Shown here: one piece after another, positions 4,295-22,774 of the stretch
Numbering within the stretch: the stretch's first letter is position 1
How the letters are laid out: each line of letters starts with the position of its first letter
From: a virus
Reading direction: 5' to 3' (one strand)
Length of the DNA stretch: 22,774 bases
Virus record (IMG/VR): IMGVR_UViG_3300049733_000558
Span: 1-22,774 of that record
Made by a program: the position numbers and the translations under genes
The notes under the pieces: model-generated
Told to the model about the DNA's origin: nothing
Seen by the model: only the letters and a program-made list of their open reading frames with translations
Databases searched by the model: none

Positions 4295-4369
4295 GGCTTG
4301 TGTGGAGGAGCGACCTGGGGTATGCCCGGTTTCTCGGGCGGTGTAGCATCAGGGCTTCCAGAGGGGATC

Positions 4370-5891: not shown

Positions 5892-7937
5892 TCACCGGAA
5901 GGCGTCGAGGCTCCGCTCGAACTCCGCATCGGACGCGTGAGCGACGTACCCGTAGACGCCGGCCAGGTCAAATCCCTCCAGCGCGCGGCACGCCGGCTCG
6001 ACCCGGCCCGACTCGACCGCCACGGCCACGCATGAGTCGGTCCGCCGCCGGAACGCTTCGTGGTCTCCGGCGGGCTCGTAGTGGAGATGGAACAGGTACA
6101 GCGCCGCCATGATTCCGCGAATGTCGTCCAGAGTCTGGAGCGGGGGGAGCCGCGCGTAGCCCCCCGAGCCTCCGCTGGTCGCGCCCTCGCTCGCCGTCGA
6201 CAAGGGTGCGTGTCCCTCTCCGCGCAGCTTCGCGACCAGGTAGCGCAGCCCGAGCTCCGCTCGCCGCAGCCCAGGCTGACTGAGCCCGCTCGTCTTCAGC
6301 TTCGCCAGAGCCTCGTCGACGCCAAGGCGCTCCTGCCCACGCCCCGTGCGCCAGTCCTCGGAAGGGACATCGAGAGAGAGCAGGAGCTCCCGCATCCATC
6401 GCACCAACGCCTCGCCCTCTCCCCACCGGATGCGCTCGCCCATCCAGCGGGCCAGGTCCCGTCCGTCCCGCGACCCGGAGTCGGACCTGGCCGCGAGAAA
6501 CTTCAGGAGCAACCTGTGCCAGTCCTGCAGTGACCGGGCTTCTACGCCGGACGTCTGCCCCTCGGCCGCATCGAGGCACCGGCACAGGAAGAGCGTCGCG
6601 AGGAGCAGCGACTCCTCGCTCGGAGCCGCGTCCTCTTGCCAGAGCGGGATCGGCGTCGGGGGAAGAATGCGGACGTCCACGCGGTTGCTGCTCGCCCGCT
6701 CGCACGCGATGCCGCGCGAGAGCACGAGCTGCGAGATCAGGGAGTCGAACCCTTCCGGCGCCGTCCAGCCGGTCCCGGCGCTCTGGTGGTCCTCGGCGAG
6801 GGCGCGCACCCGCGCCTCGATCCGGGAGCAGCGTCCGGAGAACGCCAGCTTGTCGTCGCGCCAGCCGCGAAGCTGCGACAGGAGTCCCTCCCACTGGCCG
6901 CGGTTGTGCCTCGTCCAGGGGGCGTCTCCGTCCGGGCCGTGCTTCTCGAGGTAGGTGATGACCTCGGCGAGCTCGTGAGCCGCAAGCCCGCCCAGCGAGG
7001 CGTCGGATGGTTGGAGCACGGTGTTGAAGCCGAGCTGGAGCTCCTTCTCCTCGCAGAAGCCCAGCACGTTGGGGAGGTCCCGCCAGTTGTGGGTCATCGG
7101 ACAGACGGCGAGCGACAGCTTCGTCGACTTCCGGCGGGTGTAGCCCAGGAGGTAGTCGACGTTGGTCATCACTTGGGGGAACCGCGCGTTCCGGCGGATC
7201 GCTTCGTAAACGGCCGGAGTCAGCGCATCCAGCGAGACCATGACGTCGAACCGCAGTGCCTCGAGGAGCTCCCTCACCCGTTCCGGGATGATGGTCGCAT
7301 TAGTGGTCACCGTGAGCCGGGTGTCCAGTCTCGCGTCGCGGATGCGCGTCCAGATCTCGTAGTAGCGCTTGATGAGGAAGGGCTCACCCCCGAGGAACCG
7401 GGCCCGGGAGACGGAGGGGAGGAACTCCTCGAGCTGATCGACGAAGGCGCGGTCGTAGGGACTCCTGAGGGGGGGGAGCTTCTCCCGCTTCGCGCGAATC
7501 GAGGAGGACCAGTGGCCTGCGCACATCACGCACTCGAGGTTGCACGTGTTGGAGAGCTCGAACTCGAGCACCCGGGGCATGGCGTCTTCGACGTGGGGGC
7601 GATAGCCGGCGTCCCGGGAGAACGCGTCGAAGTGTTGCATCATCGTGCCGGCGAAGTTCCGCTTCTCGAGCTGGTGGAAGCACACTCCGCACCCGGGTGC
7701 CTCCTCGTTCCTCAGGAAGGCCTCGCGGAGAGCCTGGGCCGAGGAACTCGTCCAGATCTGGCGGACGCTCTGCTCCGGGTAGGTCCCCAGGACGAAGGCC
7801 CGGTTGTAGCAGCACGAGGTGACGCGGCCGCTCTGCTCGAAGTTGAGGCTGACGAAGGGAGCGTGGCAAAGAACCGAGGTGTCGGTGCCAGGGAGGCGCG
7901 ACGAGCGGTAGGCGTCGAGGATCTCCGTCGATGGCAT
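5892..7937 (-). CDS. Twitch-domain radical SAM protein, long paralogue with about 290-aa C-terminal extension
   Basis: The protein is 681 aa. The ATG at 7937 is preceded by an ideal AGGAGG. The N-terminal module has Cys24 (CHAPFVSLNF), Cys42-Cys43 (TSCCYN) and Cys83-x2-Cys86 (GCGVCF). The radical SAM motif is Cys132-x3-Cys136-x2-Cys139 (CNLECVMC), with GGEPFL for SAM binding. Stretches such as MPRVLEF, SPYD-AFV, TTNAT and LAVCPM-NWR-LP are shared with the gene at 4370-5884, so the two are paralogues across about 370 residues. Residues from about 390 on form a long, mostly helical-looking, arginine-rich extension ending in a YLFHLHYEPAGDHEAF region, with no domain I recognise. The stop codons of the two paralogues are 7 bp apart, tail to tail. 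Confidence 0.85.
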   Translation of the reverse strand: MPSTEILDAYRSSRLPGTDTSVLCHAPFVSLNFEQSGRVTSCCYNRAFVLGTYPEQSVRQIWTSSSAQALREAFLRNEEAPGCGVCFHQLEKRNFAGTMMQHFDAFSRDAGYRPHVEDAMPRVLEFELSNTCNLECVMCAGHWSSSIRAKREKLPPLRSPYDRAFVDQLEEFLPSVSRARFLGGEPFLIKRYYEIWTRIRDARLDTRLTVTTNATIIPERVRELLEALRFDVMVSLDALTPAVYEAIRRNARFPQVMTNVDYLLGYTRRKSTKLSLAVCPMTHNWRDLPNVLGFCEEKELQLGFNTVLQPSDASLGGLAAHELAEVITYLEKHGPDGDAPWTRHNRGQWEGLLSQLRGWRDDKLAFSGRCSRIEARVRALAEDHQSAGTGWTAPEGFDSLISQLVLSRGIACERASSNRVDVRILPPTPIPLWQEDAAPSEESLLLATLFLCRCLDAAEGQTSGVEARSLQDWHRLLLKFLAARSDSGSRDGRDLARWMGERIRWGEGEALVRWMRELLLSLDVPSEDWRTGRGQERLGVDEALAKLKTSGLSQPGLRRAELGLRYLVAKLRGEGHAPLSTASEGATSGGSGGYARLPPLQTLDDIRGIMAALYLFHLHYEPAGDHEAFRRRTDSCVAVAVESGRVEPACRALEGFDLAGVYGYVAHASDAEFERSLDAFR

Positions 7938-11531: not shown

Positions 11532-12050
11532 CTGCGCAAGTTACCCGAAGCCCAGACCGCGCTCGCGTTGCTTGGGCTTGGGGCTTGCCGCCTCTGCTGG
11601 AGCCGCCGCAGGAAACAGCTAGAACCACAGAAGAGTGCGTGGTGCTCCAGCCCAAGCGTCCGAGACCTCGGCGTCCCGACGTTGGAGAAGATCGCATTCG
11701 ACGGCAACGCACTGATTGGGGCCGCGACCACTATCCAGACCCTCTCGCCCACCTGGAACGCGATGTCCTACGACCAAGACAGCGGCACCATGTATTTCGT
11801 CCGAGACCTCGGCGTCCCGACTTTGGAGAAGATCGCATTCGACGGCAACGCCCTGATCGGGGCCGCGACCACCATCCAGACGCTCTCGCCCACCTGGGAC
11901 GCGATGTCGCTGGTCTATGAACCAAGTACCGAGCCTGTGCCTGCACCCGCCGCGCCGGCATTGGCGTTGATCGCCATAGGCCTTGCTGGGTTGGCCTGGA
12001 GCCGTCGAGTATCCACCAAGCGCGCTTTAGTGCACCCCGCTGCGTATTAG
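11532..12050 (+). pseudogene. Decayed PEP-CTERM-type exported protein with repeated beta-propeller-like unit
   Basis: The frame is open from 11532 to TAG at 12048-12050, but no credible start with ribosome binding site exists. The frame first reads LPEAQTALALLGLG...WSRRRK, which looks like a degraded PEP-CTERM tail. It then has two 47-residue repeats (VRDLGVPTLEKIAFDGN, ...TIQTLSPTW, ...YDQDSGTMYF) and ends with PVPAPAAPALALIAIGLAGL followed by AWSRR, a sorting tail of proline-rich motif, hydrophobic helix and arginines. In intact proteins such tails are recognised by exosortase at the inner membrane. The second tail carries VPAPA rather than VPEPA. I read this as fused or collapsed remnants of one or two surface-protein genes; a small expressed protein cannot be excluded. 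Confidence 0.55.
11658..11909 (+). repeat. Tandem duplication, 141-bp period, about 111 bp well conserved
   Basis: The blocks 11658-11768 and 11799-11909 differ at about 6 of 111 positions by eye, with a 30-bp linker after the first. The period of 141 bp is 47 codons, so the duplication keeps the reading frame of the PEP-CTERM-like remnant. Most differences leave the protein unchanged, which suggests either a recent duplication or past selection on the protein. Confidence 0.85.
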
Positions 12051-12541: not shown

Positions 12542-12586
12542 TGGCTCCCCGAGCTGGGCTCGAACCAGCGACCTGCGGATTAACAG
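12542..12586 (-). other. Attachment-site core: 3' 45 nt of tRNA-Asn(GUU)
   Basis: Read on the minus strand the segment begins CTGTTAATCCGC (anticodon loop with GTT, then the 3' anticodon stem), continues with the T-arm GCTGG-TTCGAGC-CCAGC, then acceptor strand TCGGGGA, discriminator G and CCA. This is the 3' half of a tRNA-Asn. The 5' neighbour (GTAACGGAGGGGC) cannot pair with TCCGC and does not form a D-arm, so no complete tRNA is present. A tRNA 3' fragment starting at the anticodon loop is the usual crossover segment left by a tyrosine integrase. The chromosome lies to the left (terminator) and the element to the right. The rebuilt full tRNA should lie at the other end, beyond the window. 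Confidence 0.85.
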
Positions 12587-12663
12587 GCCCCTCCGTTACT
12601 CCTGCCCACAATCGTACGACACCCGACAACAACAGGCAAACGGCCGGTTACAGGGGAAGGGCC

Positions 12664-12939
12664 TTAGTGCTTCGGGCTTCCTCGGCCGCGATGATCCGGG
12701 ACGCCCTCAATGCGCTTGATCATGCCCTCGAGGAGAAGCGCACCAAATTCCTGACCGCTCTCACGATAGCCTGCCGCGGCCTTCCGGGAGAAGTTCAAGA
12801 ACTCCTCCTGGCTTAGATTCCCGGCGGCGCAAGCGATGAGACCGATCACCGTCATTGCATCCATCATCCCCGAGGCGACCTTGTTCATTTCGCCACGCAG
12901 GGCGAGCAGGATCTCTTGTTTAAGCTCACCGTCACTCAT
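12664..12939 (-). CDS. Hypothetical phage protein (91 aa), last gene of the element
   Basis: The 91-aa protein reads MSDGELKQEILLALRGEMNK at the start. It has an alanine/methionine-rich hydrophobic stretch (MMDAMTVIGLIACAAG) and a second helix-like half. It follows the tape measure gene after 26 bp in the same direction and is the last frame before the att core. I do not recognise the family. Its position suggests a small tail or lysis-related accessory, but nothing in the sequence proves either. The Shine-Dalgarno sequence is weak (GTGGGCTG directly before ATG). Confidence 0.55.
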   Translation of the reverse strand: MSDGELKQEILLALRGEMNKVASGMMDAMTVIGLIACAAGNLSQEEFLNFSRKAAAGYRESGQEFGALLLEGMIKRIEGVPDHRGRGSPKH

Positions 12940-12965
12940 CAGCCCACGCTAACCGGTGATCCACT

Positions 12966-14969
12966 TCAGCCCCGAACAAGATCGCGTAGCGCGCCGCCGC
13001 GCCCGATCTGGTCGCCAACCGCAGCAACCGCTCGACGCTCGATTGAGCCATGAAGCGACAGTATCAATCCCTCGAGGCGCGCCAGACCGGCAGCGTCAGC
13101 GCCGCGGGCGTCGATGTAGTAGCTATTTCCGCTTCTTGGAAGGATGCTTCCGCTCTCCCGCGGTACGAAGAGCTCGGGGCCGCGCTCCCCGACCAGGTAG
13201 GGGCGCCCACCAGTCACCGGCCCGCCGCCGGCGCGCCCCGGCACCAGGTGCGACACGCTGGACGCGCCACCGAAGAGATTCGAGAGCCCGCCAGCGAACA
13301 AGCCACTGAAGAAATTCCCGAACGGCTCGGTCACCGTCTTGCGCACGAGAATACGGGCGAGGTCCTGGGCAAGACCTTGCATCACGTCGCGGAGTTTCTT
13401 GCCGCCAACGACCGCGTCCTCGAACATGGATGAGAAGGTCAATCCCAGCTCACGCGCCAGGTCGTTCGTCTCCTTCACCTCTTGCTTCAGGCCCTGGGCA
13501 GCCTCGATCTTTTCCTGGATGAGGAACCGCGCTTCGTTGGCCTGTTCCGACGTGATGCGCCCCTTTTCGAGCAGCTCGTCCACCTCCTCGAGCTCCTTCC
13601 GGTATTTCTGGATGGGGTCGATCAGGTCGACGTGCTTATCGCGCAGCTTGCTGAGCCGATCGACCTCAGCGCGCTCGCGAGCGAGCAGCCCCTCGCGCAC
13701 CTCGTCCTCGGTCTTCTGACGTTCCTTTTCCTCGATCGCCAGCGACTTCTTGAGGTCAAGCTCGGTCAACAGTTGCAGAGCACGCTTCTGCGCTTCCTTC
13801 GACAAGTCGTCGTAATGACCGAGCTGTATCCCGGCGAGAAATTCTTCCGCCTTGCTCAGGTCTCCGACTTTGATGATCTCCTGCTCGAGCTGCTTGATCA
13901 GGTTGTCGCCGCGGTTGTTCCCTTTGCCCGCCGACGGCTTCGGCTTGAAGTCGATATCCGGCTTCTTCTCGGGGCCGAGGTCCTTCGCGTCGAGCCGGCC
14001 GCGCGCGCCCTGCGTGAGCGCCAGCGCCGCCTGCCGCTGCTGGAATTTCAGGAACTCGAGGCGCTTCTTTTCCGCCTCGATCTCCGCCTCGACCAGCGGC
14101 AGCCACCCGGTGCGGCCCTGCGCGACGAACTGCTCGCGCTTCTGGCGCAGGCCGTCGATCGTGTCCCCGACCGACTTGATGTTGCCGGCCAGGCTGCGGA
14201 ACGGGTTGATCGTCCCGAACAGCGCCAGCGCTTCCCCGAAGCTCCCGGCGACGCGCCGCCCTTCGTTGAACTCCTCGATCAACTTCTGAAGCCCGGGCAC
14301 CAGGCCGCGCAGAAAGGCGTTGCTGGCCTCGGTAGCTTCGTTGGTGAGGCGCCGGATCGACTTCTGCAGCTCCTCGGCCGCGGCCGCCTGCTCGGCGGTG
14401 ACCTTCGCCGTGATGCCGGTCTCGGTGGCGAGGTCCTTCAGGAATGGCAGCGCCTGGGCCGCGCTCTTGCCGGTCAGGGCGAGGATGGCGGCCGACTTGC
14501 CGCCGCTGTCGGCGAACTTCGTGAGCTCGGTCGCGACGCGGCGCATCGCCTCCGCCGGGTCGAGCGCGCGGAGCTCCTCCGCGGAGAGTCCGATCGCTTC
14601 CAGCGCGCGGTTGGCGCCCTTCGCCTCCTCGTCGGTCTCGTGCAGCGCCTTGTTGAGCTTGACGAGGAAGGACTCGACGACGCCGATGTCGGTGCCCGAG
14701 ATCCGCGCGACCTGCTGCAGCTTCGAGAGCTCCTCGACGCTGGCGCCGGTCACCTCCGAGAGGTCGTCGAGCTTGGCGGCCGCGTCGATCGCGTTCGAGC
14801 CGAGCGCGACGAGCCCGCCCACCGACAGCCCCACCCCGATGCCGGCCAGGGCGCCCTTGAGGCGCAGGCTGCTCGACTCGACTGTGTCGATCGAGCGCTC
14901 GATCTCATTGAAAGCCTGTTTCGTGCGGTTGACCGCAGAGATCTCGATCGTTGCCTTGCCTTGTGCCAT
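12966..14969 (-). CDS. Phage tail tape measure protein
   Basis: The protein is 667 aa from the ATG at 14969 (MAQGKATIEISAVNRTKQAF), chosen because AGAGGAAACCTG precedes it; an upstream extension would overlap the tail assembly gene. The N-terminus has the coiled-coil and glycine-rich hydrophobic pattern of tape measure proteins (GALAGIGVGLSVGGLVALGS). The middle is rich in charged coiled coil (about residues 370-520). The C-terminus carries the family hallmark GGPVTGGRPYLVGERGPELF. Such proteins set siphovirus tail length and span the tail tube. At about 670 residues it would specify a fairly short tail (roughly 100 nm by the usual 1.5 angstrom per residue rule). No tail tube, chaperone or terminator gene accompanies it. 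Confidence 0.9.
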   Translation of the reverse strand: MAQGKATIEISAVNRTKQAFNEIERSIDTVESSSLRLKGALAGIGVGLSVGGLVALGSNAIDAAAKLDDLSEVTGASVEELSKLQQVARISGTDIGVVESFLVKLNKALHETDEEAKGANRALEAIGLSAEELRALDPAEAMRRVATELTKFADSGGKSAAILALTGKSAAQALPFLKDLATETGITAKVTAEQAAAAEELQKSIRRLTNEATEASNAFLRGLVPGLQKLIEEFNEGRRVAGSFGEALALFGTINPFRSLAGNIKSVGDTIDGLRQKREQFVAQGRTGWLPLVEAEIEAEKKRLEFLKFQQRQAALALTQGARGRLDAKDLGPEKKPDIDFKPKPSAGKGNNRGDNLIKQLEQEIIKVGDLSKAEEFLAGIQLGHYDDLSKEAQKRALQLLTELDLKKSLAIEEKERQKTEDEVREGLLARERAEVDRLSKLRDKHVDLIDPIQKYRKELEEVDELLEKGRITSEQANEARFLIQEKIEAAQGLKQEVKETNDLARELGLTFSSMFEDAVVGGKKLRDVMQGLAQDLARILVRKTVTEPFGNFFSGLFAGGLSNLFGGASSVSHLVPGRAGGGPVTGGRPYLVGERGPELFVPRESGSILPRSGNSYYIDARGADAAGLARLEGLILSLHGSIERRAVAAVGDQIGRGGALRDLVRG

Positions 14970-14980
14970 CAGGTTTCCTC

Positions 14981-15592
14981 TTAAGCAGGCAGCTGCGCAG
15001 TGGATAGCCCGGTGGAGATCACCACCGAGCCGATGCGGATCGGCCCCCCGTAGCACAGCGGCACCGCCTGCCCCTGGGCGGTTACGTTGACGGCACCGTT
15101 GAAGGCGAACGAGGGCTGATTGTCGGGACGCTCCGCGGGCGTGGGAGCCTTGGGGGTGCCGGCGAGCATCTGAGCAACCCCGCTCAATGCCATGGATACG
15201 CCGAGGTTAAAGGCGATGGAAGATGCGGTGAACTTCAGCGCGCCCACACTGAAACCGATACCCTGTAGGCCCGGCAAAAATGAAAGCCCAATCAGCGCGA
15301 CGCCCGCGACGATCTTGCCCCCGCCGGCGGCGCCGGTCACGACCGGAACGAACTTGATCGCCGCGATGCCGCTCGGGTGGTGGAGCTCCTCGGCGCCGAT
15401 CGGCGTCTTGTCCACCAGCACCCGGTAGCCCGGCTCCGAGTGCTGCCGGACGTAGGCCTCGAAGCCCTTCACCACCGCGCACAGCGCGCGCACGGCCTCG
15501 CCCGGCGTCTTCACTGCCAGGCGATAGGTGCGGCCAAAGCGCGCGCGCAGGTGGCCGTAGAGCTTCACATCGACCAATCGTTGATTGTCCAT
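14981..15592 (-). CDS. Lambda gpI-like tail assembly protein
   Basis: The 203-aa protein starts MDNQRLVDVKLYGHLRARFG, with a ubiquitin-like beta-grasp N-terminus (VKLYGHLRARFGRTYRLAV). A hydrophobic glycine-rich middle follows (GGGKIVAGVALIGLSFLPG), and the end carries VTAQGQAVPLCYGGPIRIGS, the usual close of lambda tail assembly protein I relatives. In lambda this protein acts with K and J at the tail tip. There the gene lies after the tape measure gene; here it lies before it, with its stop 11 bp from the tape measure ATG. GAGAGGAACTGAAG before the ATG is a good ribosome binding site. Confidence 0.82.
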   Translation of the reverse strand: MDNQRLVDVKLYGHLRARFGRTYRLAVKTPGEAVRALCAVVKGFEAYVRQHSEPGYRVLVDKTPIGAEELHHPSGIAAIKFVPVVTGAAGGGKIVAGVALIGLSFLPGLQGIGFSVGALKFTASSIAFNLGVSMALSGVAQMLAGTPKAPTPAERPDNQPSFAFNGAVNVTAQGQAVPLCYGGPIRIGSVVISTGLSTAQLPA

Positions 15593-15663
15593 CTTCAGTT
15601 CCTCTCGTATCGCCGTGGCTGTGCAGACGTCTAGACTGCGCGCCCAGCGCCATTGTGGATGCC

Positions 15664-16032
15664 CTAGAGCGTTTTCTCGAAGAGCTGTGCTTCGCGCGCC
15701 GCCAGGTCCGCTCTGAAGAGCTGGTTCACTGAGCGGCTGATCTCCCGCATGTGCAGGCGCAGGTAGGCGTCGACGTCATCGTCCGTGACGTGCCCCACTA
15801 TGCCGATCGACTTGCGGGCAATCCCGAGCTCGCGCGCCACCGCCCGCCGCAGCTTCCTGTAGAGCGACCAGCGGGGATGACTTGTGAGGCGATTCATGAG
15901 AAAACTGGACACGCGTTGCGCGCGGGGAAGGTTAAACCCGCGCACCCGGAGCGTTCCTTTCGCGTCGTTGGCCGCGACCGGTGCAGGCACATATTGAAAA
16001 AGTGAGGACCGCGCACTATGCGCCCGCTGCAC
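15664..16032 (-). CDS. Hypothetical phage protein (up to 122 aa)
   Basis: The frame is open from a GTG at 16032 to the stop at 15664. A shorter version from the ATG at about 15897 (MNRLTSHPRWSLYRKLRRAV) is also possible. The second half is highly basic then acidic and predicted helical (VTDDDVDAYLRLHMREISRS). It sits 24 bp after the capsid stop and 71 bp before the tail assembly gene, the place where head-tail connector genes are normally found. I see no connector motif and do not recognise the family. Start site and function are open. Confidence 0.5.
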   Translation of the reverse strand: MQRAHSARSSLFQYVPAPVAANDAKGTLRVRGFNLPRAQRVSSFLMNRLTSHPRWSLYRKLRRAVARELGIARKSIGIVGHVTDDDVDAYLRLHMREISRSVNQLFRADLAAREAQLFEKTL

Positions 16033-16056
16033 TCGCGCGCGATCCCCGTCACCCTT

Positions 16057-17517
16057 CTAGCTCGCGCCGCCGACCAGCGCCACCAGGGGGCCGGCAACGG
16101 TTGCGCTCACGCCCTGCAGGTGGTTCACGATGTCGAACCTGGACGATATCTGCAGGTAAGCCTGGCGATACTCGATGTAGCGGGAAAGGTCGAATTCGAC
16201 CTGCAGTTGCCGTCGATCGCCGAAGGCCGCTGCCATTGCGAGATTGCCGAACGCCAGCATGCACTCGCCCGAGTAGTCGGTCGCCGCGCCCGCCGGCAAG
16301 ACCGGCGAGGTGCGGATCGGGTATCCCAGGTAGTTCTCGCTGAGCGCCGCGCTCAGCGTCTGGGTGTTGTTCCCGCCCGCGGTCGCGGTGAGTCGCGAGA
16401 AGACCAGGTCCCGCGCGGTCCCGGAGCAGTACCAGGCTGCGCCGATTCTGGCGTATTCCGGCAACGCGCCCATCAACGTGACCAGGTCCGTGACATCGAT
16501 CTCGGCGAACGTATCGTGCGTCGCTGCCGCAGCCGTGATTTTCGAGCCGGCGCAGGCTGCGTCGTTCTTGATGCGGTTGAACATGCCCGACATACCGGCG
16601 TACGTCGATGAACTATCGCCGACCCATCCGGCGAGATCCTCGGTTTTCGCCAGGGCGCGCGCCAGCTCGCCGGTCAGAAAATCCGCCAGGTTGGGCGCGG
16701 AGTCCTCGAGCAAAGCGCGGGAGATCCGCACGCCACCGGCGAATTCCTTCGGAATCAGGGTAACGGCTCCCAGCGACAGGTCCGACGCCGTTGTCGCCGT
16801 GTTTTCCCCGACTGCGCCCATGGTCAACCCTTCGTTGTTCGTTGGAACGCTCAGACTCGCCACCTCCAGCGGCCAGTTGCGCGCAAAACGCCGGTAGGTG
16901 CCGTACTGGTCCACGTTCGAAAGGATCTCCGCCGCAACCATGGCCGGCACGACCGCGCCGCCGTTGCTGAAGACGCTCTCGGTCATCACCCGAGTCGCAA
17001 CGATCCCGTTGTCTCGGCACCAGGCTGCGGCCCGGGCATCGCCCGCCGCACTCTTGAACCACTGCCCGACCATGTAGGCGCGCTGCACGGCGTCGTGGCC
17101 CTTGAAGTGCTGGAGTGGCCCGGTATGGACGATCTCGCGTGCTCCCTGGCCGTAAGCGGGGTGGTCGGCCTCGAGCTTGCCGGTGCAAATGGGACCGGCG
17201 CGGCGGTCTTTGATCATGGACAGAACCCTTTCCCTGAAGGCGGCGACGGTAAAGGACTGATCGCCGCGGATGGTCGCGGCCAGGGCACTGACCTCGCGGT
17301 ACGCCGGCCACATGTCAGCGAGGGCGAGAATCGCTTCCTCTCTGAACACCTGGTATTGCGAGCTCGCGTTGCCCTCGGCCTCCTGCCCCTGGGCTTCCAG
17401 GTCATCGAGGTGACGCTGAAACTCGACGCGGTCGTCGCTCGGCACCGCGGCAAGTTGCAATTCACGATTCGCCCTGGCGCCGGCGCGGCGCTGCGAGCGG
17501 GTTTGGTGCTGATCCAT
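16057..17517 (-). CDS. Possible internal in-frame product: scaffold plus capsid from nested start
   Basis: Codon 175 of the fusion gene is ATG (17517-17515), and the sequence just upstream is AAGAAAGGAAGAACG, an excellent Shine-Dalgarno sequence with normal spacing. The product would be 486 aa starting MDQHQTRSQRRAGARANREL, which is exactly the protease/delta-region junction. Nested in-frame starts in head genes are known, for example lambda C/Nu3. The signal is visible; its use is inferred. Confidence 0.5.
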   Translation of the reverse strand: MDQHQTRSQRRAGARANRELQLAAVPSDDRVEFQRHLDDLEAQGQEAEGNASSQYQVFREEAILALADMWPAYREVSALAATIRGDQSFTVAAFRERVLSMIKDRRAGPICTGKLEADHPAYGQGAREIVHTGPLQHFKGHDAVQRAYMVGQWFKSAAGDARAAAWCRDNGIVATRVMTESVFSNGGAVVPAMVAAEILSNVDQYGTYRRFARNWPLEVASLSVPTNNEGLTMGAVGENTATTASDLSLGAVTLIPKEFAGGVRISRALLEDSAPNLADFLTGELARALAKTEDLAGWVGDSSSTYAGMSGMFNRIKNDAACAGSKITAAAATHDTFAEIDVTDLVTLMGALPEYARIGAAWYCSGTARDLVFSRLTATAGGNNTQTLSAALSENYLGYPIRTSPVLPAGAATDYSGECMLAFGNLAMAAAFGDRRQLQVEFDLSRYIEYRQAYLQISSRFDIVNHLQGVSATVAGPLVALVGGAS

Positions 17518-18039
17518 CGTTCTTCCTTTCTTGAGGGCGCGACCCACGCCGACGGTATCGTCGGCGGGCACCGATACGATGGATATTTCGTACGGCTCCC
17601 AATCGGTCACGCGGTAGGTTGAAATGTTGCCGTCGGTGCGCTCGAGAACGAGATCGTGGATCCGGTACCCGACGCTCACCTTGCTGCGGATGCCGTCCCG
17701 CACATCCCGCAGAACCTGGTCGGCGAGCTCGCCGCGGCCGAAGCGCAGCACGGCTCGGCCCACGCGATCGCTCGACATGCGGGCGGTCTCCACGACGCCC
17801 ACGTGTTGATCGGGATCGTGGTTGACCAGAACGGCAGCCTGGTTGCGCAGCCGCTCCAGCCGTGCGCTGCCGGTCGCGCAATCGATGATCTCCACGCCCC
17901 ACCAGCGCTCGACGGGCGCCTCCGAGATGAAAGCAACCTCGATCGTTCGGCTATCGTGGCTGGAGGCGGCGCGCTCGAGGGAGAGCTCGCGGCGCTGCTC
18001 GCCCGCCAGCTCGGCTCGGATTGTTCTGATATCGGCCAT
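16057..18039 (-). CDS. Prohead protease-major capsid protein fusion (HK97 fold)
   Basis: The protein is 660 aa from the ATG at 18039 (MADIRTIRAELAGEQ), preceded by AGAGAGGGCCAC. Residues 1 to about 175 are a HK97-type S78 prohead protease, with candidate catalytic His in AVLVNHDPDQH and Ser in RSKVSVGYRI, and a C-terminal EISIVSVPAD strand typical of that family. A charged helical delta-like region follows (about 190-290). The HK97-fold major capsid domain then runs to the end, with VVPAMVAAEILSNVDQYGTY, the GAVTLIPKEFAGGVRISRAL strand and a GYPIRTSPVLP loop. Single-chain protease-capsid fusions are known in phages. An internal ATG with its own ribosome binding site at 17517 could make the capsid part alone. 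No portal or large terminase gene lies upstream. Confidence 0.9.
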   Translation of the reverse strand: MADIRTIRAELAGEQRRELSLERAASSHDSRTIEVAFISEAPVERWWGVEIIDCATGSARLERLRNQAAVLVNHDPDQHVGVVETARMSSDRVGRAVLRFGRGELADQVLRDVRDGIRSKVSVGYRIHDLVLERTDGNISTYRVTDWEPYEISIVSVPADDTVGVGRALKKGRTMDQHQTRSQRRAGARANRELQLAAVPSDDRVEFQRHLDDLEAQGQEAEGNASSQYQVFREEAILALADMWPAYREVSALAATIRGDQSFTVAAFRERVLSMIKDRRAGPICTGKLEADHPAYGQGAREIVHTGPLQHFKGHDAVQRAYMVGQWFKSAAGDARAAAWCRDNGIVATRVMTESVFSNGGAVVPAMVAAEILSNVDQYGTYRRFARNWPLEVASLSVPTNNEGLTMGAVGENTATTASDLSLGAVTLIPKEFAGGVRISRALLEDSAPNLADFLTGELARALAKTEDLAGWVGDSSSTYAGMSGMFNRIKNDAACAGSKITAAAATHDTFAEIDVTDLVTLMGALPEYARIGAAWYCSGTARDLVFSRLTATAGGNNTQTLSAALSENYLGYPIRTSPVLPAGAATDYSGECMLAFGNLAMAAAFGDRRQLQVEFDLSRYIEYRQAYLQISSRFDIVNHLQGVSATVAGPLVALVGGAS

Positions 18040-18057
18040 GTGGCCCTCTCTTTCGGG

Positions 18058-18144
18058 CCGGCCGCAAAATGCAAACGGCCGGCGATTTACACGAGCCGCG
18101 CGATCCTCTGCGCGGCTGTGCGATCGGTTACCGGCCGTTTTTGC
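18058..18144 (-). promoter_or_regulatory. Nested hairpins in leader of the capsid gene
   Basis: Within the 253 bp before the protease-capsid ATG, AAACGGCCGG (18073-18082) and CCGGCCGTTT (18131-18140) can form a perfect 10-bp outer stem. Inside it AGCCGCGC (18094-18101) and GCGCGGCT (18110-18117) form a perfect 8-bp inner stem. A third arm CCGGCCG (18058-18064) competes for the same pairing. On the minus strand the structure sits just before the capsid ribosome binding site. It may be an mRNA leader structure, a packaging site or a deletion scar. Confidence 0.5.
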
Positions 18145-18292
18145 CAGGAGGCGCCGCTCGACTGTCGGGACCGGCCATCGCCGCAGCGCGAAGCTATGCG
18201 GCAAGCTCAAGATCCCCGCCCGAACGGGCTCAGAACGCAGGAACACGATATCCAAGACGGCGACCCTTGCATAGCAGAGCTTGCGTCAATAA

Positions 18293-18598
18293 TTAATTTT
18301 TGGCGCTTTCCAGAGGCGCAAGCCGCCTCAGGACTTCATCGCAAGTCATGGCGACCATGCCTAGGAAGGTTTCGATCTCGACCGGCGTCACCATGTGCCA
18401 CTGCGGCGTCTGCCTGGCGGACACCAGCGTGTAGGCGCCGGCCTGGTTGTGCTCGCAGTAAAGCGCCCACATCGTCCGACCGGATCCCAGATCGCGGTGG
18501 TGCGCCGGGCGCCCGCGCGCGGGATCGCACATGGCCTCCAGGCACGCGAGACACGGGCCCAGGGGCAGAACTTCAAACGTCATCGTCGCTTTGTTCAT
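18293..18598 (-). CDS. Hypothetical phage protein with cysteine pair (101 aa)
   Basis: The 101-aa protein starts MNKATMTFEVLPLGPCLACL. It has CLACLEAMC near the N-terminus and further Cys/His residues (HHRD, YCEHNQ), so zinc binding is possible. The ATG at 18598 overlaps the end of the small terminase gene by 26 nt and is preceded by GGAGAATCGA, so translational coupling is likely. I do not recognise the family. In an ordinary lambda-like phage the large terminase gene would be expected at this position. Confidence 0.6.
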   Translation of the reverse strand: MNKATMTFEVLPLGPCLACLEAMCDPARGRPAHHRDLGSGRTMWALYCEHNQAGAYTLVSARQTPQWHMVTPVEIETFLGMVAMTCDEVLRRLAPLESAKN

Positions 18599-19187
18599 TT
18601 CGATTCTCCGGTGCAGACGTCTGCATTAGTGCAAGCTCGGGCGCGATCGCCTCGCGCTCCATGGGCGTGAGCTGGTAGACGAGCTGGATCTGCTGGTGGC
18701 GGTCCGGGCTTTTCGAGTCCCACAGCCAGGCGATATCGCCATCGCCCGTTGCCCCGAATTCGTCGTCGCTGCAATTGCATCGCTCGGCGAGCACGTTCCA
18801 GAACACGTCGAAGACGTCGAGCGCCTGGTCGCACGCGATCGCGATGTTTCCGCTGCGGGCGTAGAACCGCGCGGCGAGGCGCGGGGCGCCCTGCTTGCAG
18901 AGGTGGTTGTAGACGTCCTCGGCCGCCTGCCTGGTCGTCGGGGCTTCCAGTGTGCCGAGCTCACGCTCGAGAGCTTCGATATCGATGGGCCCGCGATCGG
19001 GGCGCGTACTGTGCATGAGCCCGCGACCGGTTCGCTTCAGCCAGGTGACGACTGCCGCCAGGTCGTAGCTATTGGGCCGCCCGCGGCGGCCATGCTCGAG
19101 CACGGGGAGGCCCTCTTTCTGCCACAGGGACAGCGCCCGCTCCGAACAGCCGAGCTTTCGCGCGAGATCGCTCTTGTTCAGTTTCAT
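18573..19187 (-). CDS. Nu1-like terminase small subunit (DNA packaging)
   Basis: The 204-aa protein begins MKLNKSDLARKLGCSERALS and continues LWQKEGLPVLEHGRRGRP, then SYDLAAVVTWL. This is the winged helix-turn-helix of lambda Nu1 and its relatives, which bind the cos packaging site. The rest is acidic and alanine-rich and would serve oligomerisation and contact with the large subunit. Length is close to Nu1 (181 aa). The gene has no purine-rich Shine-Dalgarno sequence: the minus strand before the ATG is a pyrimidine tract (TTCCTTCCCCTCC). It follows the vapE repeat array and precedes the 101-aa gene. No large terminase gene is present. The N-terminal motif makes the call fairly strong; an excisionase/MerR-type regulator is the alternative. 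Confidence 0.75.
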   Translation of the reverse strand: MKLNKSDLARKLGCSERALSLWQKEGLPVLEHGRRGRPNSYDLAAVVTWLKRTGRGLMHSTRPDRGPIDIEALERELGTLEAPTTRQAAEDVYNHLCKQGAPRLAARFYARSGNIAIACDQALDVFDVFWNVLAERCNCSDDEFGATGDGDIAWLWDSKSPDRHQQIQLVYQLTPMEREAIAPELALMQTSAPENRNEQSDDDV

Positions 19188-19299
19188 GGAGGGGAAGGAA
19201 TATCGAGATGGAGGAAGGAACTTTCTTTTAAGTCAGTGACTAGCGCGTTTTCGCGGTCGTCTCGTCCGCGTTGAAGGAGGGCCGGGAAAGGACCCGCGC

Positions 19300-19459
19300 T
19301 GGACAACCTGAACAACCGGACAACCCCATTTCAAAACATCCCTACGCACCCGCTTTCCCCTTGTGGTCCTGTTTTGCTGTAGTAGGTTGTTCAGGTTGTT
19401 CAGGTTGTCCAGTTGAGAGGTGGACAACGTTGCCGCCGGCTGGACAACCTGGTTGTTCA
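19300..19459. repeat. Inverted array of 9-bp TGGACAACC/TGAACAACC repeats
   Basis: One arm (19300-19325) reads TGGACAACC, TGAACAACC, GGACAACC. The opposite arm (19385-19411) reads GGTTGTTCA twice and then GGTTGTCCA. Positions 19300-19317 and 19394-19411 are perfect 18-bp inverted copies. Further single units occur at 19421-19429 (TGGACAACG), 19441-19449 (TGGACAACC) and 19451-19459 (GGTTGTTCA). The array spans the end of the vapE gene and its 3' flank. Tandem short units at phase 9 look like iterons of a replication origin; a regulator-binding array or a long hairpin at the gene end are alternatives. Confidence 0.8.
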
Positions 19460-20634
19460 CTGTTGACCCAGCGGCGTTGCCGACGAGCAGGCGGCCCGAC
19501 CGTTACGCGCCGCCAGCCGAGCCGTTCCAGGATCCTGGCCACGCGCATCTCTTCGCGTTTCGTTTGCCGGCTGAGCTCAAGCTTGATGGCCTCGCGCAGT
19601 ATCTCTGGGGTGGTCGTGCTCTCCTTGGCGAGCAGGAACTCACGCACCACGTCCTCCCATGGATCCCCCGCGTAGCGCGCCTCCTGCGCCTCCAGCGCCT
19701 CCTGGGCGGGCAGGGTCCACCAATCCGCACCGGATTGCACTTCGCTGACGGCCTCGGCGAAGAGCTGCTCGCGCTCGGCCTTGAGCCAGGCGAGATCAAT
19801 CGTTCCGCAACGGATCGGCACGAAGCGCCGGGCGCCGGTGTGGTCCTTGAGGTACCGGTTCTCGTTGGTGGTGCCGACAAAAACACACTGACGCGGCACG
19901 TCGACCGCGTAACGGCCATACGGCGGTCGATAGGTATCTACGCGCGTAGAAAGAAATTGCTTCACGCGCTCGATCTCGCGGCCGGAGAGCGCCTGCAGCT
20001 CGGGGAGCTCGATCAACAGATGGCCGCGCATTTCGAGGTAAGAATCCTTATCGCCGAGCCGCGAGTGCAGAGAGCCATAGAACGGGCCGGCGATCGCCTC
20101 GAGGGCACTGCTCTTGAGCGTCCCTTGCGCGCCCTCGAGCACCAGCATCGCATCAGCCTTGCATCCCGGCGACAGCACGCGCGCCGCGCAAGCCTTGAAG
20201 AGGTTGGCGCCGGCGGCCATGGAATAGTCCGAATCTTCGGCGCCGAAAGCGAGCGCCATAACCCGATTGAGACGCGCCTCGCCGTCCCACCTCAGGCCCT
20301 CCAGCCATTCGCGCGGCTCGCTGCGGTGCCGGCGCCCGCAGATGTGCATGACCGCCTGGCGCACCGCCTCGATTCGCAGCGCGGGCATGCCCAGGTGCTT
20401 CTGACAGTAGACGAGCAGCGCAACCTCGTCCGAGTCGTTCCAATCCCTCTTGAAGGTGCGAGGGCGTTGATAGAAGGAATCGAACCACACGCGATTTTCG
20501 TAAGCGGGGTGCTTCTCGAGGATCTGCAGGACGTTGGTCGCATTGGCGTAAGGCTTGAAGCGAGCATCGAGCTCCAGGTCGAGCGCGGCCCAGGTGTCAG
20601 TGAGCGGCCTTCGCTCTTCGTTGTCACTTGCCAC
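19342..20634 (-). CDS. VapE/VirE-type P-loop ATPase (phage replication primase-helicase-like)
   Basis: The protein is about 430 aa. The P-loop is clear: VLEGAQGTLKSSALEAIAGP (Gly168, Gly171, Lys174, Ser175), then a Walker B-like LLIELPEL (about 206-212), the sensor FVGTTNENRYLKD (about 252-264) and the arginine segment GARRFVPIR. These are the signatures of the VirE/VapE family (PF05272), related to superfamily 3 helicases and common in prophages, SaPIs and other satellites. The C-terminus ends in QPEQPEQPTT, encoded by the 9-bp repeat array. The start is uncertain. GTG at 20634 lies one base after GGGGGAGG, closer than normal; the frame extends to 20736 but would then overlap the upstream gene by 71 nt. 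Confidence 0.85.
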   Translation of the reverse strand: MASDNEERRPLTDTWAALDLELDARFKPYANATNVLQILEKHPAYENRVWFDSFYQRPRTFKRDWNDSDEVALLVYCQKHLGMPALRIEAVRQAVMHICGRRHRSEPREWLEGLRWDGEARLNRVMALAFGAEDSDYSMAAGANLFKACAARVLSPGCKADAMLVLEGAQGTLKSSALEAIAGPFYGSLHSRLGDKDSYLEMRGHLLIELPELQALSGREIERVKQFLSTRVDTYRPPYGRYAVDVPRQCVFVGTTNENRYLKDHTGARRFVPIRCGTIDLAWLKAEREQLFAEAVSEVQSGADWWTLPAQEALEAQEARYAGDPWEDVVREFLLAKESTTTPEILREAIKLELSRQTKREEMRVARILERLGWRRVTVGPPARRQRRWVNSEQPGCPAGGNVVHLSTGQPEQPEQPTTAKQDHKGKAGA

Positions 20635-20665
20635 GCCTCCCCCGTGACGTTTTTTTCGCCACGCC

Positions 20666-20962
20666 TCAGCGCTCGCCCCTCGCCTTGGCGGTCCGATTGC
20701 CGATCGCGATCGCCTGGGCGGCGAAGACCGGGGCATTGATGAGAAGTCTGCCGGTAATCTCGACTACGGCACCCGCGTCGAGGAGCTCGGCGCGATGCTG
20801 CCGGTAGAACCAGCGCAGCGACGGCACGCTCGGGAAAACGTGCGCGTTGGCGGCCTGGAAGGCCTCGAGCTGCTGCAGTGAATCGAAGGCGGCGGGCGCC
20901 GGCGAGCTCGCCGGCAAGGTGCGCTTGCGCGATCGCGCGGGCGCGGCAGGTTTTTCGCTCAT
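20666..20962 (-). CDS. Small excisionase-like winged-helix protein (98 aa)
   Basis: The 98-aa protein has a basic, proline/alanine-rich N-terminal tail. A compact segment follows, FPSVPSLRWFYRQHRAELLD and then AGAVVEITGRLLINAPVFAA. The pattern 'S-L-R-W...L--AGAV----GRLLIN---F' resembles small MerR/excisionase-fold proteins encoded near integrases and vapE, which bind DNA and may act in excision or replication control. AGAGGAAACC precedes the ATG. It lies between the 126-aa gene and vapE. The fold is inferred from the pattern; no key residue proves it. Confidence 0.6.
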   Translation of the reverse strand: MSEKPAAPARSRKRTLPASSPAPAAFDSLQQLEAFQAANAHVFPSVPSLRWFYRQHRAELLDAGAVVEITGRLLINAPVFAAQAIAIGNRTAKARGER

Positions 20963-21027
20963 TGGTTTCCTCTTGAACTCTGGCGGGCAGCTTCCGGCTG
21001 CTTGAGTCGCCAGCGTAAAGAGGGTGG

Positions 21028-21046
21028 CTCCGCGTGGATAGCGGAG
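21028..21046. promoter_or_regulatory. Inverted repeat upstream of the 98-aa gene
   Basis: CTCCGC-N7-GCGGAG forms a perfect 6-bp dyad in the 97-bp gap between the 126-aa gene and the 98-aa gene. It has no T-run after it on either strand. It is placed like an operator in front of the 98-aa gene and vapE, or as a small hairpin at the end of the integrase-side transcript. Confidence 0.35.
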
Positions 21047-21059
21047 TTACGGCCAGGAA

Positions 21060-21440
21060 TTACTTTTTGGCCTTTTTAAGACGGTTCTTGATGGTGCTGG
21101 GCGCGCAGTCGTACCGTTTCGCGAGCCGCTTCAGAGCGTTTCGCCCGAGCCTCTTCTTCTCATCCAGGAGCTCAGCGGGATCGGGCAAGGCGATGCGGTG
21201 GCGACCGCGCGCGCCCACCGGCCCGACGATAACCGGGCCGAACTTCTTGATGAACCAATCGAGGTCCTGGTAATCGTCCTCGACAGCAGCCTTGTACATC
21301 GCGCGCAGGAAATCTTCCTGCCACAGCCAGCGCTCCCGCTTTCCGCGCTGCTCGAGGTTGATACCGACTTCGAAGCGCAGCCGATGGCCCACTTGCGAAA
21401 TGAACGAGTACGGGTTGAGTGTCGTATCCAGCTTGCCCAT
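21060..21440 (-). CDS. Hypothetical phage protein with C-terminal HTH-like segment (126 aa)
   Basis: The 126-aa protein begins MGKLDTTLNPYSFISQVGHR. It has a central aromatic/acidic part (RERWLWQEDFLRAMYKAAVE, DYQDLDWFIKKFG) and a basic C-terminus, LKRLAKRYDCAPSTIKNRLK, that has the length and spacing of a helix-turn-helix. It starts immediately after the TAA of the 59-aa gene, with GGAGG overlapping the end of that gene, so the two are coupled. DNA binding is likely; the target is unknown. It is the third coupled gene in the integrase transcript. Confidence 0.65.
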   Translation of the reverse strand: MGKLDTTLNPYSFISQVGHRLRFEVGINLEQRGKRERWLWQEDFLRAMYKAAVEDDYQDLDWFIKKFGPVIVGPVGARGRHRIALPDPAELLDEKKRLGRNALKRLAKRYDCAPSTIKNRLKKAKK

Positions 21441-21620
21441 TTATTGCCTCCGCAGCCAGCCCAGACGCTCGGCCTCCCGCGGCCAGTCTTCTATGATGGC
21501 ACGCTTGGGCCCGCGCGGGTCACTAAAAAGTTGAACCAGCAAGGGCGCCGCGCGCAGCGCCGTGTCCCGGTTGATCCCGAACTCGATCATTTCCTCGAAA
21601 ATCTCGCTTTCCGTAGTCAT
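21441..21620 (-). CDS. Small hypothetical protein (59 aa) coupled to integrase
   Basis: A 60-codon frame starts with ATG at 21620-21618, overlapping the integrase TGA as ATGA, with GGGAGAGATCCG upstream. It ends TAA at 21443-21441, directly before the next ATG at 21440. The product starts MTTESEIFEEMIEFGINRDT and ends EAERLGWLRRQ, is acidic and predicted helical. Perfect junctions on both sides and a normal ribosome binding site make it a real gene despite its size. I do not recognise a family. Confidence 0.7.
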   Translation of the reverse strand: MTTESEIFEEMIEFGINRDTALRAAPLLVQLFSDPRGPKRAIIEDWPREAERLGWLRRQ

Positions 21621-22531
21621 CGGATCTCTCCCAGGAGGCGGTTCACGAGCGAGGCCTTGCTGTTCACCGTCAGGTGCGCGTAGCGCTTGGTCATCGCGAG
21701 CTGGCGGTGCCCCATGACGTCGGCGATCTCGAGCAGGCTCGCGCCCTGCTGCGCGAGGTAGGAGGCGCAGGTATGGCGGAGATCATGGAAGCGGAAATCC
21801 GCGAGCCGCGCCTCCTTGCGCGCGGCGTTCCAGACGGTTTCGAAGTTGAAGGCGACCCGCGACTTGCGGGGCGAGGCGAAGACGAGCGCCGCCGGCGCGC
21901 CCTGGAACGGGGCGAGCTCGGCGATCGCCGCGGGCGTGAGGGGCAGCACCCGCCGGTCATCGTTCTTGGTCGTGCAGACGTATGCACGGGCGCCCTCGAG
22001 ATCCACGTCGCGCCAGGTGAGGGCCAGGAGCTCGCCGCGGCGCGCGCCGGTGGTGATCGCGAGGAGCACCAGGGCGTAGAGGCGGGGCCAGCTCGAGGCG
22101 CGGCAGGCCTCGAAGAGGCGCTCGCGCTCGGCTTCTGAGAGGAAGCGCACGCGCCCGCGGGGCTCGGCCTGGCGCTCGATCTTGCGGCAGGGATTCTCGA
22201 AGCCCTTGGGCACGCGCCGGCGCTTGATCGCCCAGGAGAAGAGCGCCCCGAGCGCGACCTGGTAGCGGTTCACGGTTGAGGGCGAGCGCTTGTCTCCGCG
22301 GGCCCGGAAGACGCGCCGGCCATCGGCGTCGCGCCCGGCGTAGCGGCGCGCCGGCGTCGTCGCGAGCGTTTCGAGCGCGGCGAAGACGTCGTCATCGGTG
22401 ATCGAGGCGGCCGCGCGATCGCCCAGGCGCGCGACCCACCAGCCCAGGCGATGCGGTCGGGAATCGTCACGCCCGGTGTACTGGGCGAAATACTCGTCGA
22501 CGAGCTGGGCGAGGGTGAGCTCGGCACTCAT
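21617..22531 (-). CDS. Tyrosine recombinase / phage integrase
   Basis: The protein is 304 aa from the ATG at 22531 (MSAELTLAQLVDEYFAQYTG), preceded by GGGGGTGGAAA. It has an N-terminal SAM-like core-binding domain (about residues 5-110) and a complete catalytic set: Arg164 (TGARRGEL), Lys189 (TKNDDRR), His249 and Arg252 (FHDLRH), His275 (VMGHRQ) and nucleophile Tyr284 (KRYAHL). It catalyses site-specific integration and excision, here presumably at tRNA-Asn (core at 12542-12586). The start overlaps the stop of the upstream partial gene (ATGA) and the stop overlaps the start of the 59-aa gene, so integrase is embedded in a multi-gene transcript, not an isolated end gene. Confidence 0.93.
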   Translation of the reverse strand: MSAELTLAQLVDEYFAQYTGRDDSRPHRLGWWVARLGDRAAASITDDDVFAALETLATTPARRYAGRDADGRRVFRARGDKRSPSTVNRYQVALGALFSWAIKRRRVPKGFENPCRKIERQAEPRGRVRFLSEAERERLFEACRASSWPRLYALVLLAITTGARRGELLALTWRDVDLEGARAYVCTTKNDDRRVLPLTPAAIAELAPFQGAPAALVFASPRKSRVAFNFETVWNAARKEARLADFRFHDLRHTCASYLAQQGASLLEIADVMGHRQLAMTKRYAHLTVNSKASLVNRLLGEIR

Positions 22532-22774
22532 TTTCCACCCCCTTTGAGCGCCGACACTTTGGATTTTCGGCGGCCGCGCGGCGCGCGCTTGACGGCTTGG
22601 GCGACGGCGCCCAGCCAATCCAGTTCGAGATAGAGCTCCCACTGCAGCGCCTCGACTCGATCGTGCGCCGGGCTGGAGAGTGCCTTGCGGGCCGGAATTT
22701 TCAGGGGGAGCGGGCGTTTCTCGATCCGCTCGAGTACGAGCTGGCTCAGGTCGCGTAGGCGTGAGAGGGTAAGC
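22528..22774 (-). CDS. Hypothetical phage protein, C-terminal 81 residues (cut by window edge)
   Basis: The frame is open from the right edge for 81 codons and ends with TGA at 22530-22528, sharing ATGA with the integrase start. The visible part reads LTLSRLRDLSQLVLERIEKR and later ALQWELYLELDWLGAVAQAV, then a lysine/arginine-rich tail (RAPRGRRKSKVSALKGGGK). It is helical and basic at the end, with no recognised domain. It shows that the element continues to the right past integrase, so the right att site is not immediately beyond int. Confidence 0.6.
   Translation of the reverse strand, partial: LTLSRLRDLSQLVLERIEKRPLPLKIPARKALSSPAHDRVEALQWELYLELDWLGAVAQAVKRAPRGRRKSKVSALKGGGK

Follow-up and report, generated by a model that had tools for sequence, protein, structure and literature searches.

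Gene content and integration site of the element

The viral record IMGVR_UViG_3300049733_000558 was analyzed over its complete length of 22,774 bp (hereafter, the window). The right part of the window, from an attachment (att) core to the right edge, is occupied by an integrated element of at least 10.23 kb with genes for a major capsid protein of its own and for a tape measure protein (TMP). The right end of the element and the intact tRNA-Asn are not contained in the sequence read, and the term visible part is used accordingly. In this visible part, no large terminase (TerL), portal, connector or tail tube gene was detected by family searches and a survey of open reading frames (ORFs). All unassigned ORFs within the element encode at most approximately 130 aa; therefore, a TerL or portal gene cannot be hidden there.

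Every gene of the element is located on the minus strand and reads leftwards in a tidy, overlapping arrangement. The replication and packaging functions are represented by a VapE-type replication ATPase/helicase of 464 aa (19342–20736; PF05272, E = 4e-68) and a Nu1-like small terminase (TerS) of 204 aa (18573–19187), which was matched only in its N-terminal helix-turn-helix (HTH) region (PF07471, E = 1e-8; phrog_57, E = 3e-13). These are followed by a prohead protease–major capsid fusion of 660 aa counted from the ATG at 18039 (16057–18039; PF04586 (Peptidase_S78) and PF05065 (Phage_capsid), phrog_617 E = 4e-72). Downstream of the capsid, a lambda gpI-like tail assembly protein of 203 aa (14981–15592; PF06805, E = 5e-7; phrog_32, E = 7e-54 over the full length) and the 667-aa TMP (12966–14969; phrog_1538, E = 9e-22, plus further families of TMPs) are encoded. 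A tyrosine integrase (int) lies at the opposite end of the element (21617–22531; PF00589, E = 5.5e-29; phrog_1, E = 1e-62).

The left boundary of the element is the att core (12542–12586, minus strand), which comprises 45 nt matching the 3′ part of tRNA-Asn. It spans the anticodon loop through CCA, and the CCA faces the chromosome on the left flank. This remnant was compared with the real tRNA-Asn of a Caulobacterales relative (L496, described below), and a local alignment of 58 nt was obtained in which the mismatches clustered at the 5′ end of the remnant. No intact tRNA was found in the window by ARAGORN. When an element inserts into the 3′ end of tRNA-Asn, such a remnant remains at its far end; the intact tRNA-Asn is therefore expected past the right edge.

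The remaining genes of the element are small. An 81-aa ORF without a family match (22528–22773) overlaps the int start and is cut by the right edge; because it lies beyond int and is still open, the element continues past the end of the record. A 59-aa ORF (21441–21620), called from the sequence, overlaps the int end and is followed by a 126-aa probable HTH protein (21060–21440), likewise called from the sequence and with no family match. The 98-aa orf98 (20666–20962) is 51% identical over 72 aa to the ORF at 13048–13347 of a complete satellite from Burkholderiales (L521). Between TerS and the capsid gene lies a 101-aa protein with CxxC motifs (18293–18598), the positional counterpart of ORFs in two viral contigs (626–952 of L327 and 585–839 of L175). 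The counterparts in L327 and L175 are homologous to each other (E = 2e-4), and the window copy was matched to them by position and motif only. This protein had no family match, and a counterpart was found only in L327 and L175 and in none of the full phages examined. No family match was found for the 122-aa orf122 (15664–16032), and the 91-aa orf91 that follows TMP (12664–12939) matched neither Pfam nor PHROG.

An initial annotation of this DNA, made from the letters alone, had named int, small DNA-binding genes, VapE, a Nu1-like TerS, the protease–capsid fusion, and gpI-like and TMP genes. All of them are present, with Pfam or PHROG matches for int, VapE, TerS, the fusion, gpI and TMP. It had also reported that TerL, portal and tail tube genes were missing between TerS and att, which holds for the visible part, as neither a family match nor an unassigned ORF of sufficient length for TerL or portal was present. 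Its derivation of the att core from tRNA-Asn was confirmed by the alignment with L496. One correction concerns the right edge, where the outermost gene is the 81-aa ORF and not int.

The left approximately 12.5 kb of the window resembles chromosomal DNA and carries VWA/BatA, glycosyltransferase and oxidoreductase genes together with two convergent radical SAM/SPASM genes (4298–5884, plus strand; 5892–7937, minus strand). Beside the att core, at 11660–12050, a duplicated stretch of approximately 110 bp ends in a PEP-CTERM-like sorting tail (ALIAIGLAGLAWSRR) and is apparently a decayed secreted-protein gene.

Relatives with the same reduced plan

Capsid relatives were collected among viral contigs and genomes. 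Profiles derived from these very loci were then used to look for portal, TerL and TMP genes, and the detection of TMP and portal in these relatives depends on those home-built profiles. Nearly all capsid relatives were full phages with the portal gene directly upstream of the capsid gene. A lack of relatives with the reduced gene order of the window had been named beforehand as a result that would refute the satellite interpretation. Eight further elements were found in which a capsid gene is followed by a TMP gene; five of them have exact ends, and none has TerL or portal in the sequence available. All large ORFs of these eight elements were assigned; thus, no room is left for TerL or portal. 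The initial annotation had regarded TMP as an oddity of this one element, which was not the case, as TMP belongs to a plan common to all eight relatives.

Five relatives are complete, with sizes of 8.75–11.2 kb; four are bounded by att repeats and one is circular. The element in an Acidobacteria metagenome-assembled genome (MAG; Acidobacteriota, L144) is 9,810 bp long, is bounded by a 52-nt repeat at tRNA-Thr, and encodes int, an excisionase, a replication initiator, the capsid fusion and TMP. L175 is a viral contig that forms a 9,450-bp circle, as deduced from its 144-bp terminal repeat, with a tRNA 3′ end as attP between TMP and int; its genes encode int, an AlpA-like protein, a replication ATPase, the CxxC protein, the capsid fusion and TMP. 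A Hyphomonadaceae MAG (L121) contains an element of 11,197 bp with a 20-nt repeat at tRNA-Tyr and genes for an AAA ATPase, TerS, the capsid fusion, TMP and int. L496, a 900-kb contig of Caulobacterales, holds an element of 9,969 bp that is delimited by a 15-nt repeat at tRNA-Asn and encodes int, xis, TMP, the capsid fusion and a replication initiator. L521, on a 183-kb contig of Burkholderiales, is the smallest (8,754 bp), with a 49-nt tRNA-like repeat, int, the orf98 homologue, a primase-helicase, a major capsid protein (MCP) and TMP.

The other three relatives are cut by contig edges, and not all their ends are known. L454 (Burkholderiales) is located at tRNA-Cys and encodes int, a topoisomerase-like protein, TerS and MCP, with TMP at the contig edge. 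The viral contig L327 contains TerS, the CxxC protein, the capsid fusion and the start of TMP, and L519 (Caulobacterales) contains a serine integrase, a TerS-like HTH protein, the capsid fusion and TMP. The large serine integrase of L519 (8382–10004) stands in place of a tyrosine integrase in the capsid–TMP plan.

The capsid fusion of the window is 48% identical to that of L327 over 659 aligned positions, and its TMP is 31% identical to that of L521 over 684 aligned positions. Single-protein scans with VapE and with Nu1 gave two loci each. Other loci were set aside: L302, L303, L387 and L390, which had looked promising, were phages or phage pieces, and L453, L233, L401 and L406 were fragments.

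Distance between the capsid and TMP genes

The capsid stop and the TMP start are separated by 52–509 bp in the reduced elements versus 1.9–8.6 kb (median approximately 3 kb) in approximately 105 phage loci, a set from which four short entries were excluded (duplicates of L454 and of L496, together with L471, found to be the same as L521). In four elements of unrelated capsid lineages, the gap is 153–160 bp (L121, 6514–6666; L144, 11855–12010; L175, 3002–3159; L496, 8653–8805). Hairpin folding of the gap was significant in L144 (z = −4.2) and in the shorter gap of L454 (z = −3.2). The folds were weak in L121, L175 and L496 and no common structure was found; a shared RNA element in the gap was accordingly set aside.

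The TMPs of the complete satellites are 606–1109 aa long, within the phage range (phage quartiles, 631–847 aa). As the TMPs are of ordinary phage length, a shortened or dwarf tail was rejected as their purpose. Their purpose is more likely to set a fixed tail length, to serve in DNA entry, or to make the satellite independent of the TMP of the helper. In the window, gpI precedes TMP, while gpI follows TMP in the phages in which both were found (L017/L037, L134 and L281).

Phylogeny of the capsid genes

A tree of the protease domain was built from 47 rows and 147 columns. Gene content, and not the place in the tree, decided which elements were labelled as satellites. The seven satellite fusions fell in seven places; seven changes were needed, at least six of which were forced by starred branches, and a single satellite clade was rejected (approximately unbiased test, p = 1.6e-53). 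The capsid genes are polyphyletic; thus, the reduced plan arose repeatedly. Each satellite capsid adjoins phage capsids in the tree, as in the cases of L144 with L180 and L175 with L167/L173. The capsid and TMP of L144 are both closest to those of one phage, L180 (51% and approximately 45%, respectively). Reduction of temperate phages, or else uptake of capsid–TMP pairs, is the probable origin of the satellites, and the same two structural genes appear to have been retained, with loss of the intervening block, many times. Such repeated retention of capsid and TMP is not what decay predicts.

Conservation of the protease was evaluated at 36 conserved sites. In the window, L121 and L175, 97% of these sites were kept, equal to the phage median; the values were 100% in L327, 89% in L144, and 75–78% in L496 and L519, which belong to a more divergent branch. 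The earlier argument that intact active sites speak against simple decay is therefore supported for the conserved protease sites of the window.

Satellite or prophage remnant

The gene content places the element among satellites. It is integrated, its length of at least 10.23 kb lies in the satellite range of 7–20 kb, and int and a replication gene (VapE) are present, while virion genes required for an independent particle, namely TerL, portal, connectors and tail tube, are missing from the visible window and from the complete relatives. A complete temperate phage carries TerL, portal, connectors and a tail module between int and att, and this set is not seen in the visible window. Between the two possibilities raised initially, a satellite and a deleted prophage, the eight relatives with the same plan and the conserved protease sites support the former. 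The element is thus very probably a phage satellite and not a dying prophage.

Several observations weigh against this interpretation. The VapE, Nu1 and capsid genes are colinear with those of a full 39-kb phage (L407), minus the TerL and portal genes that L407 has between them, which fits reduction from a prophage. The record stops before the right end of the element, and no close copy of the element was found. A distant DNA search of phage records gave only patches of 70–90 bp. No helper was identified for the window, and phrog_15 TerL was found in none of the genomes of L144, L121 and L454, so any helper there is of another type or comes from outside.

The colinearity with L407 is one argument for a dying prophage, in which an L407-like phage would have lost the TerL–portal block and the block from connectors to tail, with capsid, gpI and TMP left by chance. 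The position of the capsids beside phage capsids in the tree and the decayed gene bordering the att site also fit such a history. However, nine elements share the same capsid and TMP remainder and represent no fewer than six independent capsid lineages; five of these elements have exact ends or are circular and have similar sizes of 8.75–11.2 kb. Moreover, long open frames and conserved protease sites are kept, and plain deletion does not yield the order in which gpI precedes TMP. A dying prophage is accordingly considered unlikely, and reduction is likely the origin of the element but not its present state.

As the element runs on past the edge, with the 81-aa ORF upstream of int, its TerL, portal and connectors could sit to the right of the record, which would make it a capsid-forming phage-inducible chromosomal island (cf-PICI). 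Loci that resemble cf-PICIs and have related capsids are present in Caulobacterales (L497, L498, L499, L505 and L506). Yet the genes next to TerS in the window are those for the CxxC protein and capsid, where a cf-PICI would have TerL and portal. In the complete relatives, the att end is occupied by int or by small genes adjoining it, and cf-PICIs have no tail genes (PMC10690885); this explanation is hence very improbable. A role as defence cargo, in which the capsid and TMP homologues would poison head and tail assembly of incoming phages and form no particles of their own, is given equally little credence. Interference with tail assembly is known from both satellites and prophages (Tai, Tab; PMC11364771), but a blocker needs neither a capsid-borne protease with conserved sites, nor an adjoining TerS and replication ATPase, nor a full-length TMP. 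The metagenomic source of the record raises the question of an assembly chimera, which is hardly credible given the tidy overlapping genes on one strand, the TerS–CxxC–capsid–TMP order in L327, and the orf98–MCP–TMP order of the window in the 183-kb contig of L521.

Proposed mechanism and its meaning

For the satellite interpretation, a route to hybrid particles can be proposed. The element would reside in tRNA-Asn and be excised by Int and replicated by VapE, as expected from their families. On helper infection or induction, TerS of the satellite, by the role known for its family, would guide the TerL of the helper to satellite DNA. The protease–capsid fusion would build a head on the helper portal, to be filled by helper TerL, and the connectors, tail tube and tip of the helper would assemble around the satellite TMP with the gpI-like protein. 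The outcome would be a hybrid particle carrying approximately 10 kb. We lean slightly towards this mechanism, and the satellite interpretation and hybrid particles taken together are considered likely overall. With a similarly slight preference, the nine elements may represent a new satellite design that evolved at least six times, supplying the head shell (a capsid that may or may not be fused to a protease), the tail ruler and often TerS, and borrowing portal, TerL, connectors, tube and tip.

In the metagenome of L175, a phage fragment with a portal gene (L233) encodes the capsid nearest to that of L175 (64% identical), which fits a local helper or donor for L175.

Known satellites either reshape the head of the helper or build an entire head, packaging motor included, and use the tails of the helper. 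If the proposed design is true, the head shell and the ruler would be the two virion parts for which a satellite-specific version is worthwhile, and the particles would be altered in both head and tail. A shell and TMP of its own, combined with a borrowed portal, motor and remaining tail, raises the question of which virion parts are interchangeable and offers a natural test of TMP roles beyond length. Repeated origin in unrelated capsid lineages would make this a convergent solution, and the plan may sit unrecognised as defective prophages in many genomes.

Comparison with known satellites

No satellite with a TMP was found in a full-text literature search, whose reach did not extend to the primary cf-PICI, VEIME (virion-encapsidated integrative mobile element) and tycheposon papers, so priority is not certain. 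VEIMEs and tycheposons are environmental integrative satellites, some of which have been reported with capsid genes.

The element shares int, a VapE-type replication protein and a TerS that redirects packaging with phage-inducible chromosomal islands (PICIs), including the Staphylococcus aureus pathogenicity islands (SaPIs). PICIs, defined by int, a regulator, Pri/VapE and TerS, remodel the helper capsid and have no major capsid gene, whereas the element encodes its own capsid and TMP and thus falls outside them. Phage-inducible chromosomal minimalist islands (PICMIs) are likewise small integrated satellites, but they lack capsid genes, including those for capsid remodelling, unlike the element with its capsid fusion. 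The Streptomyces satellites MulchRoom and MiniFlayer also encode a capsid; they differ in that their capsid and packaging genes form a full set, including terminase, portal and adapter, and in that a primase-like replication gene is absent, and no TMP is mentioned for them.

Two loci show the capsid fusion in other settings. In Photobacterium alginatilyticum (L152, 6761–16442), a capsid-only satellite of 9.6 kb at tRNA-Met with a 53-nt repeat carries int, the protease–capsid fusion and a primase-like gene and has no TMP; phrog_15 TerL is encoded elsewhere in the host genome, a possible helper. In an Alphaproteobacteria MAG (L163/L389, 213–3715), the capsid fusion is directly followed by xis, int and tRNA-Glu at the contig edge, and structural modules of prophages whose capsids are related (L387 and L390) are found in the same genome.

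Another comparison is with cf-PICIs, which encode capsid, protease, portal, connectors, TerS, TerL and HNH, and need a helper only for tails (PMC10690885). The five Caulobacterales loci named above resemble this kind, as their TerL, portal and capsid genes are located next to an integrase gene; thus, both plans coexist. The element resembles cf-PICIs in int, small DNA-binding proteins, a replication gene, its own major capsid with protease, TerS and integration in a tRNA gene. It differs from them in two respects, as TerL, portal and connectors are missing from its visible part, and tail functions, namely TMP and a gpI-like protein, are encoded by the element itself.
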